A stretch of 64,000 bases of DNA from a virus, in IMG/VR virus record IMGVR_UViG_3300032236_001232, positions 1-64,000 of that record; one strand, given 5' to 3'. This document shows, piece after piece, positions 34,883 to 49,588 of this stretch. The notes under the pieces are model-generated. The model searched no databases. It had not been told where the DNA came from and saw only the letters and a program-made list of their open reading frames with translations. The translations under genes were made by a program, and so were the position numbers. Within the stretch, counting starts at the first letter, position 1; every line of letters starts with the position of its first letter.

Positions 34883-35974
34883 TTAAAATGTATTTACATA
34901 GATGGGCATAGGCATAACCCATTCATCTTCGGATTCTTCTCTCATTTTATCATAGATACTGGGATCCCATTCCTGCAGAGTCATGGCCATTCTCACAGCC
35001 AATAACAAACTACTGACTAGATCATCATGGGTTCCAGATTTACCGGCAAAACTTATACCCTTAGCCACATAGGTTTTAAGTTCACTGATTAAGGGCTTGC
35101 TGTTTAATGTCATTCTATTGCTTTCAATTAAATGCTTTAATTTAGCACAGGCTGATATTTTACTAGTATGTGTAGTATTAAATCCTTTGCGGAATCTACG
35201 CACATGACCACGCTTAACTGGTTCACTGAGGAACAGTCCAGGGACACTTTCTTCGCCTATCTCTTCCATGGCTACCAGTGCTGCTTCACCTACGCTATTG
35301 TTTTCAATGCTGTAATATAAACTAGGAGTAACACCTTTCCTCGCACACTCGCTATTGATGTGATTACAAATATCTCTTAATATTCTCACCTGTCCCTGAA
35401 TAGGAGTAAGGTTATGATGCCACTCGGCTACTTGATCAAAACTGGGCAGTTCCATAATCTGTATAGCCGCAGGATCACCACCTGTTCCTAGACTGGGATC
35501 TAATGCCACTAGATAAGTGTGTTTAGGATTGATCTTTTTATACCAACGACATTGACCCATTTTCATTATGGGTTCCTTACCGTCTATACCGGCCAGTTTG
35601 AGACTGCTGATCAGGGTTTCATCAAAAACCAAAAATTCACAATTTTTAACAAGAATATCATTAGCATAAAATCTATGATTTTTTTCAACATTGAATAGAT
35701 CATATACTGGTTCTTTGTCAAACAATTTTACAGATACTACTTTTTCAATACCACTTGCAACTTGAATTCTTATACCGGGAAACAATTTTTGTGCTTCAAT
35801 TGGGCAGAATTTATTATCAAAAAAGTTGTGGTCAGGAGTGCAGGTTATTTCTCTGGTTTCTGTTTTTACCTTCAGTGTTTTTTGTAGGCCTTTATCCAAT
35901 AGCCCCTCAAAATTACTCCATCCGGTGTCGGTGAGGACTTGTAATCCTAATTTATTTTTTAGCAATTCTTCCAC
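34883..35974 (-). CDS. 17: Terminase large subunit C-part with C-intein (gp17 nuclease half)
   Basis: Translation probably starts at GTG 35974, with GAAGGA at 35987-35982 seven bases upstream, inside the end of the endonuclease gene. The first 111 residues form a C-intein. GLQVLTDTGWSNFEG is followed by block B-like ITCTPDHNFF, then VYDLFNVEKNHRFY (block F) and ANDILVKN ending in Asn111. The extein then starts with Cys (C+1) and gives 252 residues of terminase nuclease: FLVFDETLI, the Asp motif VALDPSLGTG, the Glu motif YYSIENNS, and THDDLVSSLLL with a third Asp. Trans-splicing with the N-part would restore a 528-residue gp17. The penultimate intein residue is Lys, not the usual His. Confidence 0.88.
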   Translation of the reverse strand: MEELLKNKLGLQVLTDTGWSNFEGLLDKGLQKTLKVKTETREITCTPDHNFFDNKFCPIEAQKLFPGIRIQVASGIEKVVSVKLFDKEPVYDLFNVEKNHRFYANDILVKNCEFLVFDETLISSLKLAGIDGKEPIMKMGQCRWYKKINPKHTYLVALDPSLGTGGDPAAIQIMELPSFDQVAEWHHNLTPIQGQVRILRDICNHINSECARKGVTPSLYYSIENNSVGEAALVAMEEIGEESVPGLFLSEPVKRGHVRRFRKGFNTTHTSKISACAKLKHLIESNRMTLNSKPLISELKTYVAKGISFAGKSGTHDDLVSSLLLAVRMAMTLQEWDPSIYDKMREESEDEWVMPMPIYVNTF

Positions 35975-36635
35975 GACTAAATCCTTCAGGTTGATTACCT
36001 TCTTTAAATTGACGGGCCACCTCGCCATTGTTATACCACAGCATTCCTCGTTTTGCAGGCAATAATCGAGGCAACCTACCTTTAACATATCCATCTGGAC
36101 AATTTAGAGCATATGTTTCTACTACTCCGTTATTGAACCAGGTTTTTCCTTTGGCAGATCCTACTGTGCCTTTTTTAGCATCACTTATTTTTTTATTTCT
36201 TGCAGGATCTTTAGTATAATCATAATATCCGTCGGCAGATCTAATCTTAATTTGTTTTTCTCTTTCTTCTTCAGACCACCCTGTGCCTTTCTTTCGTCCG
36301 CCAATACCCGGTCTTTTTACACCCCTATTAGCGGCAGGTTTTCCATACATAGGATTTTTATCTCCTAAACGCATTTTAGATAGTTTCTCCTTGGCCTCTG
36401 TAGTATGTTTATAGCCACCGGGATTAGAATTTTTTAATATTTCATAAATTCTTTCTTCGTCTTTCATAATGCCAGATAAACTCAACCATGCTACTCTGTC
36501 CTGCCATCGGCCGTATTTTTCATATAGTTCTTTATGAGCAATGGCATGCTCCTCTATACTTAATTCAACCAAATTTGAAGGTTCATCGGAGCCTCCTGCG
36601 TGTCGAGGTATTATATGATGCTTATGTATTTTCAT
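35952..36635 (-). CDS. Free-standing HNH homing endonuclease between the terminase halves
   Basis: The 227-residue protein starts at ATG 36635, 5 bases after a GATAAATA late element; an in-frame ATG at 36728 lies inside the N-intein frame. The HNH domain is KHHIIPRHAGGS with NLVELS and EEHAIAH. A NUMOD3-like DNA-binding segment (HTTEAKEKLSKMRLGDKN) follows. Two repeats of W(F/Y)NNG...P-(D/E)-G-(Y/F)...GR are at the C-terminus. The gene lies exactly in the break of the split intein. It probably cuts intact terminase alleles and so spreads the split arrangement. Confidence 0.88.
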   Translation of the reverse strand: MKIHKHHIIPRHAGGSDEPSNLVELSIEEHAIAHKELYEKYGRWQDRVAWLSLSGIMKDEERIYEILKNSNPGGYKHTTEAKEKLSKMRLGDKNPMYGKPAANRGVKRPGIGGRKKGTGWSEEEREKQIKIRSADGYYDYTKDPARNKKISDAKKGTVGSAKGKTWFNNGVVETYALNCPDGYVKGRLPRLLPAKRGMLWYNNGEVARQFKEGNQPEGFSRGRIAKK

Positions 36636-36640
36636 AATAT

Positions 36641-36648
36641 TATTTATC
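36641..36648 (-). promoter_or_regulatory. Late-type element GATAAATA before the endonuclease
   Basis: GATAAATA on the minus strand lies between the N-intein stop (36662) and ATG 36635, and ends 5 bases before the ATG. Confidence 0.45.
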
Positions 36649-36661
36649 ATTTCGTCAAATA

Positions 36662-37588
36662 TTATGAACTCATCAACAATTGTTTTAAATCTATAATCGA
36701 TATTTGTTCTATTTTTCCATTTGGCCATTTAACAGATATGATAGAATTTCCAGTAATACATTCGTGCTCTCGCCTAAATCGTTCTTCACCAATACGACTG
36801 CGTTCAACTTCGGCCCATTCTTCGTTTCGTTCAGGATGTTCGCTCCAATGTGCTTTGAATGGGAAGAATCCATTCTTACCTGTTTCTGTAGTATTTCCAT
36901 GTTCGTCAAATCGTTTATTGGCTTCGTGCCAGATCTGCGCAAACTGGTCTTCATCACTGTTAGGGGTTGATGTAATAATGGCCTTACCACCAGTGGCCAG
37001 TGTAGGACTAATGGAGGTCCAGAATTCACTGGCAATGTTAGGCGGCACGAACGCAAACTCGTCTGCGTATAGTAGTGATAAACTCATACCCCGGCCAGTT
37101 GTTTCTGTAGTAGTCTGTGCTACAATACGACTGCCGTTATCAAACTCAATACTTTGTTTATTATAACTGGTGCAACCTGCACGAATATGATCAGGACATA
37201 ATTCATAAGCATAACGAACACGCAACATAATCTCTTGAGCACCTGTGTGTTTGTGTGCTGCTACCAGTATGGTGCTGTTATCTACAAACATAGCATACCA
37301 CAGTAGATAACCGGCTGCTGTTGTAGTTTTACCTGTTTGTCTTGGTAGTAGATTTACATTAAATCTATGATCGTGATAACTGTCAATCAGTCTGCGTTGA
37401 TAATCAAATGCTTCGTATTTTAGTTTACCCTTCACCGGATGCTGAATGAAGAAAAAATTGTCTAAGAAGTAATGCGGCCCGTTGACAGGGTCCTTACACT
37501 TCGCCAGTTCTTCAATCATCTGTTCAGTGTATTGAATCTGACTGTGTGGTGTTTTAACCAGTTTATATTCGTTTTCTTTCTTGGCCAT
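36662..37588 (-). CDS. 17: Terminase large subunit N-part with short N-intein (gp17 ATPase half)
   Basis: A 308-residue product. Residues 1-276 are the ATPase half of gp17: Walker A LPRQTGKTT (81-89), Walker B LLYADE (172-177), coupling motif TSTPN (206-210). Residue 277 is the first intein Cys (CITGNSIISV, block A), followed by WPNGKIEQISIIDLKQLL and a stop 32 residues after the Cys. The terminase reading frame then resumes in a separate gene about 0.7 kb downstream. The N-intein is far shorter than the roughly 90-100 residues of canonical split inteins. It resembles the atypically split AceL-TerL type. Confidence 0.92.
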   Translation of the reverse strand: MAKKENEYKLVKTPHSQIQYTEQMIEELAKCKDPVNGPHYFLDNFFFIQHPVKGKLKYEAFDYQRRLIDSYHDHRFNVNLLPRQTGKTTTAAGYLLWYAMFVDNSTILVAAHKHTGAQEIMLRVRYAYELCPDHIRAGCTSYNKQSIEFDNGSRIVAQTTTETTGRGMSLSLLYADEFAFVPPNIASEFWTSISPTLATGGKAIITSTPNSDEDQFAQIWHEANKRFDEHGNTTETGKNGFFPFKAHWSEHPERNEEWAEVERSRIGEERFRREHECITGNSIISVKWPNGKIEQISIIDLKQLLMSS

Positions 37589-37647: not shown

Positions 37648-38502
37648 TTAACGAGTCTCAGTCACGAACTGTTTCCAGTCTGCCATTAACTGCTCTTCCA
37701 TAGTGGCAAATGCTTTAGGCTTATCGCCGTCCATACGATCACCTTGACCAGGTTGATTCTCACGATGTGCGAATTCATTAGCATCAAAGGGTGCAGGTGG
37801 TTCTGGATCTGCTGGACTATTATCATACATGCCTTCGTCGGCTTCTTCCTCGTCGTCCATTTCCTCATCGCCCATGTCTGGATTCATTTTGTCCATTACA
37901 CTGCGCATCATTTCGCCGTTGCTATGATCGTGATCAAGATCCATAGAAGGTTCGGCAGTTAAAATTGCTGGTTCATGTTCTATGCCTAGATGTGCTGGTT
38001 CAACTTGATGAACACCGGCCAGTTTCATAATGTCTGCTAGCATACCACTGAGTTCAGGACCACTGTTGGCTGTCATGGAAATACTGGCAGGAGTATGTGT
38101 TTGTCCACCCATGCCCGGCATAGGCATCATGCCACATTCTGCTAGGTCTAAACTTTCACTTACGGCAGTTTGATCCATTGTATCGGCAGCAGCAGTCGGG
38201 GCCACAGCAGCAGGGGCAGCACTGGTTTTAAGATAGTTAGGATTCTTTTTTTCAAATTCTTCTGGACTTAGCACAGGAACAGGACGACCGGTAGCATCAA
38301 CCGGAGCACCTTTACCGTTGGCATCTCTCCACTGTTGGTCAGCAACTCGTTTGTTTAATTGCTGCTCATATGGTGTGCCACGATATTTCTGTTGCATAGC
38401 CTGCAATTGTTGTAAGGCAGGACTAGCCTGGCCTTCGCGAATTATATTGGGATTGCCGGCGTCTAATTCGGCCAATCTTTTCATTAGATCGATCATCTGC
38501 AT
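37648..38502 (-). CDS. Putative structural or scaffold-like protein (284 aa)
   Basis: A 284-residue protein. Residues 1-90 are helical (LMKRLAELDAGNPNI) and Gln-rich, the centre is Ala/Met/Pro-rich and His-containing, and the C-terminal half is acidic (EEMDDEEEADEG). A short LADIMKLAGVH segment recalls the LKLAGLK and LLKAAGL ends of two other large proteins. There is no enzyme motif. It lies between gp16-type and gp17 genes, so a packaging or head-related role is inferred. AAGGAA precedes the ATG. Confidence 0.5.
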   Translation of the reverse strand: MQMIDLMKRLAELDAGNPNIIREGQASPALQQLQAMQQKYRGTPYEQQLNKRVADQQWRDANGKGAPVDATGRPVPVLSPEEFEKKNPNYLKTSAAPAAVAPTAAADTMDQTAVSESLDLAECGMMPMPGMGGQTHTPASISMTANSGPELSGMLADIMKLAGVHQVEPAHLGIEHEPAILTAEPSMDLDHDHSNGEMMRSVMDKMNPDMGDEEMDDEEEADEGMYDNSPADPEPPAPFDANEFAHRENQPGQGDRMDGDKPKAFATMEEQLMADWKQFVTETR

Positions 38503-38506
38503 AATT

Positions 38507-39094
38507 TTATTTCCTTGGATCGGGAGCAGTTTTTAAAATACTGGCCGTGTTGCCTTCGCTATCGGTGCTGTATTTAACAGTGCTTTCTGTAGGGATCTGT
38601 TCACCTCTAGCCTTACGCTCTAGTTTTAGTAGATCATTTAACTCTTTAACAAAACCACTGTTATATTTGTCGCCATAATAATCTTCAAACTGAGGACTTC
38701 CTGCTTCTTTATAATCGGGATCATTTAGTAGCGCACCCTCACGCTGCTCAACTGGTTCCTGGTATTCTTCACTGGGCTCACCTGGACGACGCACAACCAA
38801 ACGCTGTTTACCACATCCAAGTTCTGCACTGAGATATTCAGTCAGTTCATATTGTGTTGTAGGATAGTCCAGTGTAACTTCGTAGATATTAACCTCAGCA
38901 TTTTTAACATGAGGAAAATCTAGTGGTAACTCTTGAATAGGTGTTTTAGCAGTTTTCTTGAAACCACTGAGCGTATATCTACCCAATAGTGACTTCAGTT
39001 GATCTTCTTGGTCAGGGGTGATATCACCGGCGATTTTAACACGAAAATCGTATTGTTTTTTACTTTCAGAAAGGTAGGCTTTGAATGATTTCAT
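38507..39094 (-). CDS. Hypothetical protein between gp16 and gp17
   Basis: A 195-residue protein beginning MKSFKAYLSESKKQYDF. It contains EVTLDYPTTQYELTEYLSAEL, suggesting an alpha/beta domain, followed by a polar Glu/Pro-rich linker and the C-terminal helix VKELNDLLKLERKARG. No family is recognised. Its late promoter AATAAATA ends 8 bases before its ATG. A virion role is likely from location. Confidence 0.55.
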   Translation of the reverse strand: MKSFKAYLSESKKQYDFRVKIAGDITPDQEDQLKSLLGRYTLSGFKKTAKTPIQELPLDFPHVKNAEVNIYEVTLDYPTTQYELTEYLSAELGCGKQRLVVRRPGEPSEEYQEPVEQREGALLNDPDYKEAGSPQFEDYYGDKYNSGFVKELNDLLKLERKARGEQIPTESTVKYSTDSEGNTASILKTAPDPRK

Positions 39095-47110: not shown

Positions 47111-47115
47111 ATGAA

Positions 47116-47123
47116 TATTTATA
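47116..47123 (-). promoter_or_regulatory. Perfect late promoter TATAAATA for gp13
   Basis: TATAAATA on the minus strand is followed by 5 bases and ATG 47110. It is an exact T4 late consensus, interleaved with the opposite late promoter. Confidence 0.75.
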
Positions 47124-47125
47124 CT

Positions 47126-47133
47126 AATAAATA
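47126..47133 (+). promoter_or_regulatory. Late promoter AATAAATA (rightward)
   Basis: AATAAATA on the plus strand ends 7 bases before ATG 47141. It lies 2 bases from the opposite TATAAATA, so the two divergent late promoters together occupy about 18 bp. Confidence 0.6.
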
Positions 47134-47140
47134 CAACACT

Positions 47141-47872
47141 ATGCCAGAAACCTTTGCTTTCCTCCAAAACAAATATACCAGGTGGTATTTTAATATTATT
47201 TCCAATGCTCAAAATAGAGATATTGTTGGCTATATTGAAAAACATCATATTATTCCTAAAAGTTTAGGTGGAAGTAATCACAAAGACAATTTAGTTAAAT
47301 TAACCGCACGAGAGCATTTTATATGTCACTGGTTACTTACTAAGATGGTAATTGAAACAAAACATCGATATCAAATGTGGAATGCATTTAGTTGTATGTT
47401 ATATCGAACCAGATCCGATCAAACTCGATATAAAGTAACTGGACAAATATTTGAGAATATCAAAAAAGAGGGTGCTAAAATCAAAAGTATTAAATTCAGT
47501 GGAGAAAATAACCCAATGTATGGAAAAACTCATTCTAATGAAGCAAGGGTTAAAATGGGTATTTCTCATCTGGGTCAAAAACGATCTAAAGAAACCTGTA
47601 AAAATATAAGTCTATCTAGGTTAGGAAAATCTAAAACAGAATCCCACAAAAATTCTTTAAAAAAATCTTGGTCTGAAAATAGAGAATCTCGATCTGGAAA
47701 AAATCATCCAGGATATGGTAAACCGTTAGACGACAGCATTAAAGAAAAAATAAGGCAATCAGTTTTAAATAAACCATTACATACCTGCGAACATTGTGGG
47801 AAAACTACAACTAAGGGTAATTATCGAAGATGGCACAGTGATAATTGTAAAGTTATTTTAGGAGTAATCTAA
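47141..47872 (+). CDS. Free-standing HNH homing endonuclease with NUMOD3
   Basis: A 243-residue protein; ATG 47141 (MPETFAFLQNKY) is preferred over ATG 47111 because of the adjacent late promoter. The HNH domain is KHHIIPKSLGGS with NLVKLTAREHFICH. NUMOD3-type repeats follow (ENNPMYGKTHSNEAR, GQKRSKETCKNISLSRLGK). A C-terminal zinc-finger-like piece has CEHC and HSDNC. It is inserted between gp13 and gp14, and its stop overlaps the gp14 start (TAATG), so gp14 translation is coupled to it. Confidence 0.85.
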   Translation: MPETFAFLQNKYTRWYFNIISNAQNRDIVGYIEKHHIIPKSLGGSNHKDNLVKLTAREHFICHWLLTKMVIETKHRYQMWNAFSCMLYRTRSDQTRYKVTGQIFENIKKEGAKIKSIKFSGENNPMYGKTHSNEARVKMGISHLGQKRSKETCKNISLSRLGKSKTESHKNSLKKSWSENRESRSGKNHPGYGKPLDDSIKEKIRQSVLNKPLHTCEHCGKTTTKGNYRRWHSDNCKVILGVI

Positions 47873-49078: not shown

Positions 49079-49588
49079 ATGTATATCTATAAATTTACTC
49101 ACATAGAAACAGGAAGATCTTATGTAGGACAAACTATTCAAGATCCTAATCGGCGTAGGCTTGAACATATTTGTGATAGTAGACATACTCCACGAACATA
49201 TCACTTTCACAATGCATTGAAAAAATATGGAATAGGTGCATTCAGTTTTGAAGTTATTGCAAAAGCATCATCGTTGGATGAGTTAAATGTCTTGGAAGAA
49301 AAATTCATTGTAGAGTTTGATAGTATTGCTAATGGATTTAATATTAGAAATGGTGGAGGAAATAAGACACATCATCCTGACAGTATTAAGCGAATGAGCG
49401 AGGCACAAAAAGCTGTTAGGGCTGAAAGAAAAATTAATGGCACCGATAGTGGTTGGAAAAGAAAAGATGGCGGACCGATGAAGGGTAAAGCTCATCCAAA
49501 TAAAGGCGGAACAAGTTCGTTAAAAGGAAAAACTTTAAAAATGATTGACGGTAAGAAAAGATGGGTAGAACGGGAGGCGTCGGTTTAA
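49079..49588 (+). CDS. GIY-YIG homing endonuclease with NUMOD3
   Basis: A 169-residue protein opening MYIYKFTHIETGRSYVGQT, the GIY-YIG pattern with Y-I-Y and YVGQT. The catalytic Arg helix (RRRLEHICDSRH) and Glu (LNVLEEKFIVEFDSI) follow. The C-terminal NUMOD3-like tail has HHPDSIKRMSEAQKAVR and GGPMKGKAHPNKGG. It begins one base after the gp14 stop, a typical SegA-type insertion site. Confidence 0.88.
   Translation: MYIYKFTHIETGRSYVGQTIQDPNRRRLEHICDSRHTPRTYHFHNALKKYGIGAFSFEVIAKASSLDELNVLEEKFIVEFDSIANGFNIRNGGGNKTHHPDSIKRMSEAQKAVRAERKINGTDSGWKRKDGGPMKGKAHPNKGGTSSLKGKTLKMIDGKKRWVEREASV

Follow-up and report, generated by a model that had tools for sequence, protein, structure and literature searches.

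Dassa reportedly described, in 2009, fractured genes for conserved phage enzymes in which the coding region is divided by a split intein and a free-standing endonuclease gene lies between the two parts. Only about half of these loci are said to contain a Vsr-like endonuclease, and control elements were reportedly noted to have arrived together with the endonuclease. Here, we analyze a locus of this type in a stretch of viral DNA (referred to as the window) that comprises positions 1–64,000 of the 163,947-bp record IMGVR_UViG_3300032236_001232. The gp17-like (T4-type) terminase (TerL) of this uncultured phage is encoded by two separate genes on the minus strand, one at 37588–36662 and a second that ends at 34883; an open reading frame (ORF) for an HNH/NUMOD3 endonuclease sits between the two genes and overlaps each of them. 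The likeness to the Dassa-type loci lies in a conserved enzyme gene that a split intein divides in two, the endonuclease being encoded by a gene of its own in the gap. The locus differs in that the interrupted enzyme is a terminase, the nuclease is of the HNH/NUMOD3 type (GIY-YIG in relatives) rather than Vsr-like, the genes overlap in two reading frames, and apparent loss of the nuclease and re-fusion of the intein are visible among relatives. The terminase locus of the window is designated WIN, and related loci or contigs compared with it carry L-numbers.

AceL-TerL and GOS-TerL combine short N-inteins (25 and 37 amino acids) with long C-inteins (104 and 115 amino acids) (PMC11766414). Compared by lengths and description, WIN resembles them in its TerL host, short N-intein (32 amino acids), long C-intein (111 amino acids), and Cys at position +1; an engineered consensus of atypically split inteins (6dsl_B) gave a weak match (E value of 0.018). 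Among inteins in the PDB, VidaL (6vgv) is the closest in structure and also gave the best score; its sequence identity is only ~23%. Jumbo phage MIJ3 has been reported to carry an HNH endonuclease inside a split intein of PolB; this intein differs from WIN in its PolB host and in a typical long N part, its N half containing blocks A to N4 (PMC6892783). In Campylobacter phage IBB_35, an intein together with an HNH (mobE-like) gene interrupts TerL, an arrangement described as intein plus intron (PMC3322345). TerL, intein, and HNH are combined there as in WIN; related Campylobacter C-intein-like stretches are only ~33% identical. The preliminary description of the window had contrasted its HNH enzyme with the Vsr-like endonuclease reported before. 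The HNH/NUMOD3 assignment stands, but HNH genes in fractured genes had already been reported (MIJ3 PolB and IBB_35 TerL), and split inteins with endonucleases, HNH enzymes included, are known. In collaborative homing, a free-standing nuclease is paired with an intron (reviewed in PMC2988022 and PMC10448857). WIN shares with these pairs a free-standing nuclease that appears pre-adapted to the insertion site and joins a splicing element; it differs in that this element is a split intein and that intermediates are visible.

Every feature initially listed for the fractured terminase was confirmed, in minus-strand orientation. The first gene encodes the ATPase half of TerL (N-extein, residues 1–276, ending in RREHE; 36761–37588), which matches Pfam Terminase_6N at 2e-16 and the gp17 structure 3ezk at 1e-35. 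After residue 276, the gene continues with CITGNSIISVKWPNGKIEQISIIDLKQLLMSS and then stops. This 32-amino-acid N-intein (Cys1 to MSS), together with its stop codon (36664–36662), occupies 36662–36760 and is homologous to the N-inteins of L004–L006 and L085–L108 and also to the beginning of the intein in L009, which is continuous. The second gene encodes, in order, intein blocks B, F, and G, the sequence CEF, and the nuclease half of gp17. Its C-intein (111 amino acids from a GTG start to Asn) spans 35642–35974 and its RNase H-like C-extein (252 amino acids from Cys+1, plus stop) spans 34883–35641, so that the two exteins sum to 528 residues (276 + 252). The whole mobile cassette measures 1,119 nucleotides (nt; 35642–36760). 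Two start sites required revision. The C gene, placed originally at ATG 36094, probably begins at GTG 35974, a codon conserved in the family and preceded at 7 nt by the Shine-Dalgarno-like string GAAGGA (35982–35987); a string of this kind precedes the C gene in 58 of 68 loci. The HNH/NUMOD3 ORF extends to 36728, but a conserved start at ATG 36635 suggests a protein of 227 rather than 258 amino acids (35952–36635).

Relatives were gathered by a search of IMG/VR, which yielded terminases with and without inteins, and by further searches with the C-intein and with the C-terminal module of the nuclease. The split form with the same nuclease type was found again in L004–L006 and L085–L108; several of these are contigs retrieved twice. 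Counts of C-inteins use 68 distinct sequences, nearly all of which are split and share one insertion site. Intein-free alleles display the exact empty site, and no C-intein homologues were found in bacterial genome contigs. Recurrence of the arrangement in many independent contigs, together with the exact empty sites, indicates that it arose neither by chance nor by faulty assembly. The alternative that the stop at 36662 is a sequencing error, raised in the preliminary description, is excluded. Three other causes of the break, namely a group I intron, a programmed frameshift, and faulty assembly, are together extremely improbable, even though the N and C parts of WIN happen to be in one frame, many phage introns carry HNH genes, and an intron was described in the TerL of IBB_35, which is similar. 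A group I intron in the break was rejected when Rfam returned no intron match, and a programmed frameshift was rejected because frames are not conserved between loci: numerous stop codons interrupt the frame between the parts, and this frame is not the same in L005, L093, L094, and others.

WIN contains the residues expected of a class 1 Hint intein, namely Cys1, the TxxH of block B, the C-terminal Asn, and a nucleophile at +1. Throughout the family, the terminal Asn and Cys+1 are invariant (68/68), TxxH is kept in 64 of 68 C-inteins, and the first residue of the N-intein is Cys or Ser in 57 of the 62 that could be read, the other five probably being misplaced calls at loci with two inteins. 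A structural model of the continuous homologue in L009 adopts the Hint fold with a predicted local distance difference test (pLDDT) score of 81, and its best match in the PDB is the VidaL split intein (E value of 1.3e-12; template modeling score of 0.86). One feature bears on the efficiency of trans-splicing. The penultimate residue of block G is Lys rather than His in WIN; it is Ser, Lys, His, or Ala across the family, with Ser, Lys, or Ala in 64 of 68. A penultimate His is common in block G but not obligatory; its absence may affect how efficiently the intein splices. Loss of this His would also suit a terminase that operates as two non-covalent subunits with the intein halves as inert leftovers, and Aeh1 NrdA provides a precedent for a split enzyme that is active without splicing (PMC3653736). 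Inert ends would decay, however, and the invariant Asn and Cys+1 and the near-invariant block B persist down to ~43% intein identity with WIN; moreover, the same site contains continuous versions (L008/L009, L156, L166) that would need splicing. We therefore consider the two-subunit terminase quite unlikely, and the element very probably represents a trans-splicing split intein with a homing nuclease.

Comparison of closely related terminases supports mobility of the cassette, which is missing from L010–L014. The exteins of WIN and L011 are 97% identical, and L011 has no intein. Conversely, the exteins of WIN and L004 are 78–79% identical, whereas their N-inteins, HNH enzymes, and C-inteins are 91, 93, and 95% identical, respectively; at the level of DNA, identity rises from ~70% in the flanks to ~93% in the cassette with a sharp change at both edges. 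The loci L006 (with cassette) and L053 (without) exhibit ~97% DNA identity over ~5 kb around an exact insertion. Presence and absence were also placed on a tree built from the exteins of 86 terminases; on this quick tree, with Shimodaira-Hasegawa-like approximate likelihood ratio test values as its only support, well-supported branches required at least eight gains or losses. Mobility is thus well supported by these comparisons. The original proposal that TerL is interrupted by a split and mobile intein, with a nuclease gene placed between its parts, agrees with the conserved catalytic residues, the Hint fold, the scattered presence of the cassette, and the greater similarity of cassettes than of exteins. 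Most likely, the nuclease copies the element into intact terminase genes. HNH proteins that aid terminase are known (PMC10448857), and the position of the gene at terminase might suggest that it encodes a packaging helper, the role suggested for HNH proteins of the HK97 type, instead of a homing enzyme. This is very unlikely indeed, given that terminases 97% identical to that of WIN occur without the HNH gene, that the gene travels with the intein, that its head is swapped for GIY-YIG in relatives, and that nuclease-less split and continuous versions exist. Upstream of the terminase, the alignment between the window and L011 fails at a gene located at 37648–38502; elsewhere around the terminase the two are ~90% alike.

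The HNH/NUMOD3 ORF matches NUMOD3 above the cut-off (2e-9) and HNH at 21.2 bits, just below the cut-off of 21.4; its PHROG match is a homing endonuclease (9e-18), and the HNH residues H6, H7, N21, and H30 are invariant in 24 proteins. A weak structural model of the HNH enzyme (predicted template modeling score of 0.30) is a point against the overall interpretation. HNH relatives outside terminase inteins have only the N-terminal head in common with the WIN enzyme. Its C-terminal 121 residues (35955–36317), which include two NNG..GF.GR repeats, form a module that is 50–62% identical among proteins with a GIY-YIG head (L144, L155) or a distant HNH head (L147, L157, L167); the heads themselves are unrelated or ~30% identical. 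Comparison of these proteins indicates that catalytic heads of the HNH and GIY-YIG types are swapped on one retained module, which is the probable target-recognition part of the enzyme. Nearly all of the 71 module loci that were found lie at the same intein site in terminase. Exceptions are L223 and L234, in which an intact terminase is followed directly downstream by a free-standing HNH gene with the module. The terminase sites of these two loci read CEFVQDEETL and CEFLIWEETL, and the Asp of DETL that they alter is kept in 70 of 71 other empty alleles. This alteration fits protection of the site from the resident nuclease, as judged from two loci of one divergent clade. The nuclease class of L223, L103, and L139 was assigned by reading the sequences by hand and not by pattern search.

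Nucleases of other types were also observed. At the same terminase site, L169 contains another type of nuclease that matches DUF7487, and L171 combines a Ser1 N-intein (GOS-TerL-like) with a further type of nuclease whose end looks Vsr-like. The divergent terminase of L112 has a gap of ~396 nt at this site, possibly a continuous mini-intein, and immediately upstream lies an HNH gene whose head belongs to the same family. The window itself harbors further free-standing genes of the homing type in the structural gene region, encoding HNH/NUMOD3 (47111–47872, plus strand) and GIY-YIG (49079–49588, plus strand) nucleases.

In examining the region just before the nuclease start, we noticed a copy of the C-extein start, (K/E)F(V/I)I(Y/F)DET in another frame, at a near-fixed distance from the stop codon of the N-intein. 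In WIN, the copy reads EFIIFDEMI (36645–36671) and supplies the N-intein stop codon. It varies chiefly at codon position 3, with positions 1 and 2 kept in the manner of a homing target. The pattern was detected in 29 of 32 HNH1 genes with the module, 4 of 5 HNH2 genes with the module, and 2 of 3 genes of GIY-YIG type a, compared with 3–12% of shuffled sequences (7% for the set of HNH1 genes with the module); it is a degenerate pattern built from HNH1 loci, and some of the sequences counted are related to one another. All six module-less HNH1 genes lack the pattern. The copy overlaps or abuts the sequence TAAATA, which in WIN forms part of a late-promoter-like box (TAAATAAT; 36639–36646) directly upstream of the HNH start. 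Within the window, 7 of 55 long ORFs have TAAATA in the 25 nt before their start, compared with an expectation of ~0.4 (minus-strand ORF starts at 39094, 37588, 34870, 41511, 26540, 13584, and 9504); ATAAATA is not enriched over the window as a whole, the enrichment being confined to positions upstream of long ORFs. TAAATA is probably a late-promoter box of this phage. The sequence also stands just before an internal ATG of the window gene at 47111–47872 on the plus strand.

This organization recalls that of I-TevI in phage T4, whose operator is a homing-site-like sequence that overlaps a T4 late promoter and is cut ~100-fold less (PMC2988022). In both cases, an upstream copy of the homing site overlaps a late-promoter-like box of the nuclease gene. 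I-TevI differs in being an intron-encoded GIY-YIG enzyme for which binding and repression have been demonstrated (PMC2988022); the parallel drawn here is one of sequence resemblance. Initially, we suspected that the copy was a non-functional scar of an old insertion, which recombination at the terminase site could produce. Two observations weigh against the operator: the pattern is absent from all six GIY-YIG type b loci, which weakens a universal operator role and is equally compatible with a scar, and the copy in WIN, taken alone, is modestly above chance (16 of 27 matches, equalled in 7 of 300 shuffles). The copy also precedes the free-standing nucleases, ~750 nt from the terminase site, and for this reason we prefer an operator over a scar. 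The copy follows the module rather than the head, tolerates changes at codon position 3 while positions 1 and 2 are kept, and, like the I-TevI operator (PMC2988022), shares part of its sequence with a late-promoter-like box, all of which argue against a scar. We rate the scar as a serious contender that falls somewhat short of an even chance; an operator of the nuclease is the better reading of these patterns, although not a proven one.

The end of the nuclease gene overlaps the beginning of the C-intein gene (35952–35974). The nuclease tail (..QPEGFSRGRIAKK) and the start of the C-intein (VEELLKN..) are encoded by one stretch of DNA in two frames, and this overlap recurs in split loci that bear the module. 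The tail repeats a motif located upstream in the same nuclease, which suggests that it is probably native to the nuclease. The continuous inteins of L009, L156, and L166 retain the nuclease tail in an unused frame (~21 residues in L166) as well as a rare GTG Val codon that corresponds to the start codon of the split forms. Fossil nuclease tails are also present in the split, nuclease-less forms L145/L148 and L168. The simplest reading is that the nuclease was lost and the intein re-fused, and L009, L156, and L166 look like products of such re-fusion. According to the usual view, continuous inteins yield split ones, and these mini-inteins would then be ancestral, with the nuclease tail having arisen by overprinting on intein sequence. 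We regard this order of events as unlikely; the tail echoes the upstream nuclease motif and has a counterpart in the free-standing nucleases of L223/L234, where there is no intein, and all three continuous inteins keep the GTG Val codon in addition to the other-frame tail residues seen in L166.

Relatives of the locus occur in named phages. In Serratia phage 92A1 (L174) and Providencia phage PSTRCR_127 (L175), the break in the terminase falls one codon earlier and holds a split intein and a GIY-YIG gene in the same overlapping layout; ahead of the nuclease start, the region that encodes the N-intein contains TATAAATA. In Vibrio phage Va1 (L173), a single reading frame joins nuclease, C-intein, and C-extein, and the N-intein resides in a separate overlapping gene. 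If the records of these three phages represent propagated isolates, a broken terminase would be compatible with a viable phage. Inteins were also observed at other positions of TerL. The terminase is in three pieces with two inteins, one of them at the site studied here, in L139, L196, and L227, where the second intein precedes CDEFAF and has another HNH-type nuclease gene upstream. An additional C-terminal part of an intein before CDEFAF (Walker B region) accompanies the site studied here in L142, L143, and L205. Salicola phage SCTP-2 (L001) contains an intein at approximately residue 175 of the ATPase half in an unbroken gene.

Together, these comparisons suggest a model in which the terminase halves are translated separately from two genes, after which the N-intein (32 amino acids) and C-intein (111 amino acids) would associate and join the halves by trans-splicing, as their conserved chemistry and fold predict. 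The C-terminal module would direct the HNH enzyme to intein-free terminase genes, which it would cut near RREHE|CEF, and repair of the cut would copy in the whole cassette, consistent with the mobility evident from comparison of loci. The element probably originated when a free-standing nuclease already aimed at the terminase site united with an intein there. On this union, the nuclease tail would have become the overlapping start of the C-intein, and the control region of the nuclease (site mimic and late-promoter-like box) would have come along to supply the stop codon of the N-intein. Subsequent loss of the nuclease would leave the split intein on its own or, where its parts fuse in frame, a continuous intein. 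The steps of origin, operator, and re-fusion are less certain than the core of the model. It is tempting to speculate, and we lean slightly toward this possibility, that the terminase site serves as an assembly line at which a free-standing nuclease with its module and self-targeting operator merges with an intein, swaps heads, and heals after nuclease loss, such that fracture of the gene is reversible.

Relative to the open-licence literature, the new elements, as far as shown, are the swapping of heads on one module, a mimic of the homing site at the promoter of a split-intein nuclease, free-standing forms of the nuclease beside altered terminases, and continuous inteins that bear fossils of the nuclease. 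Discussion of how nucleases enter inteins and why inteins split has so far relied mostly on single snapshots. The site studied here, in a single essential gene, is found empty, beside a free-standing nuclease, split with several kinds of nuclease, split without nuclease, and with a continuous intein, and a near-identical pair with and without the cassette is among these states. Three ideas thereby become testable: the union of a pre-adapted nuclease with an intein, the residence of specificity in a portable module, and the reversion of split inteins to continuous ones. The family also offers many split inteins with short N parts, which may serve protein ligation.
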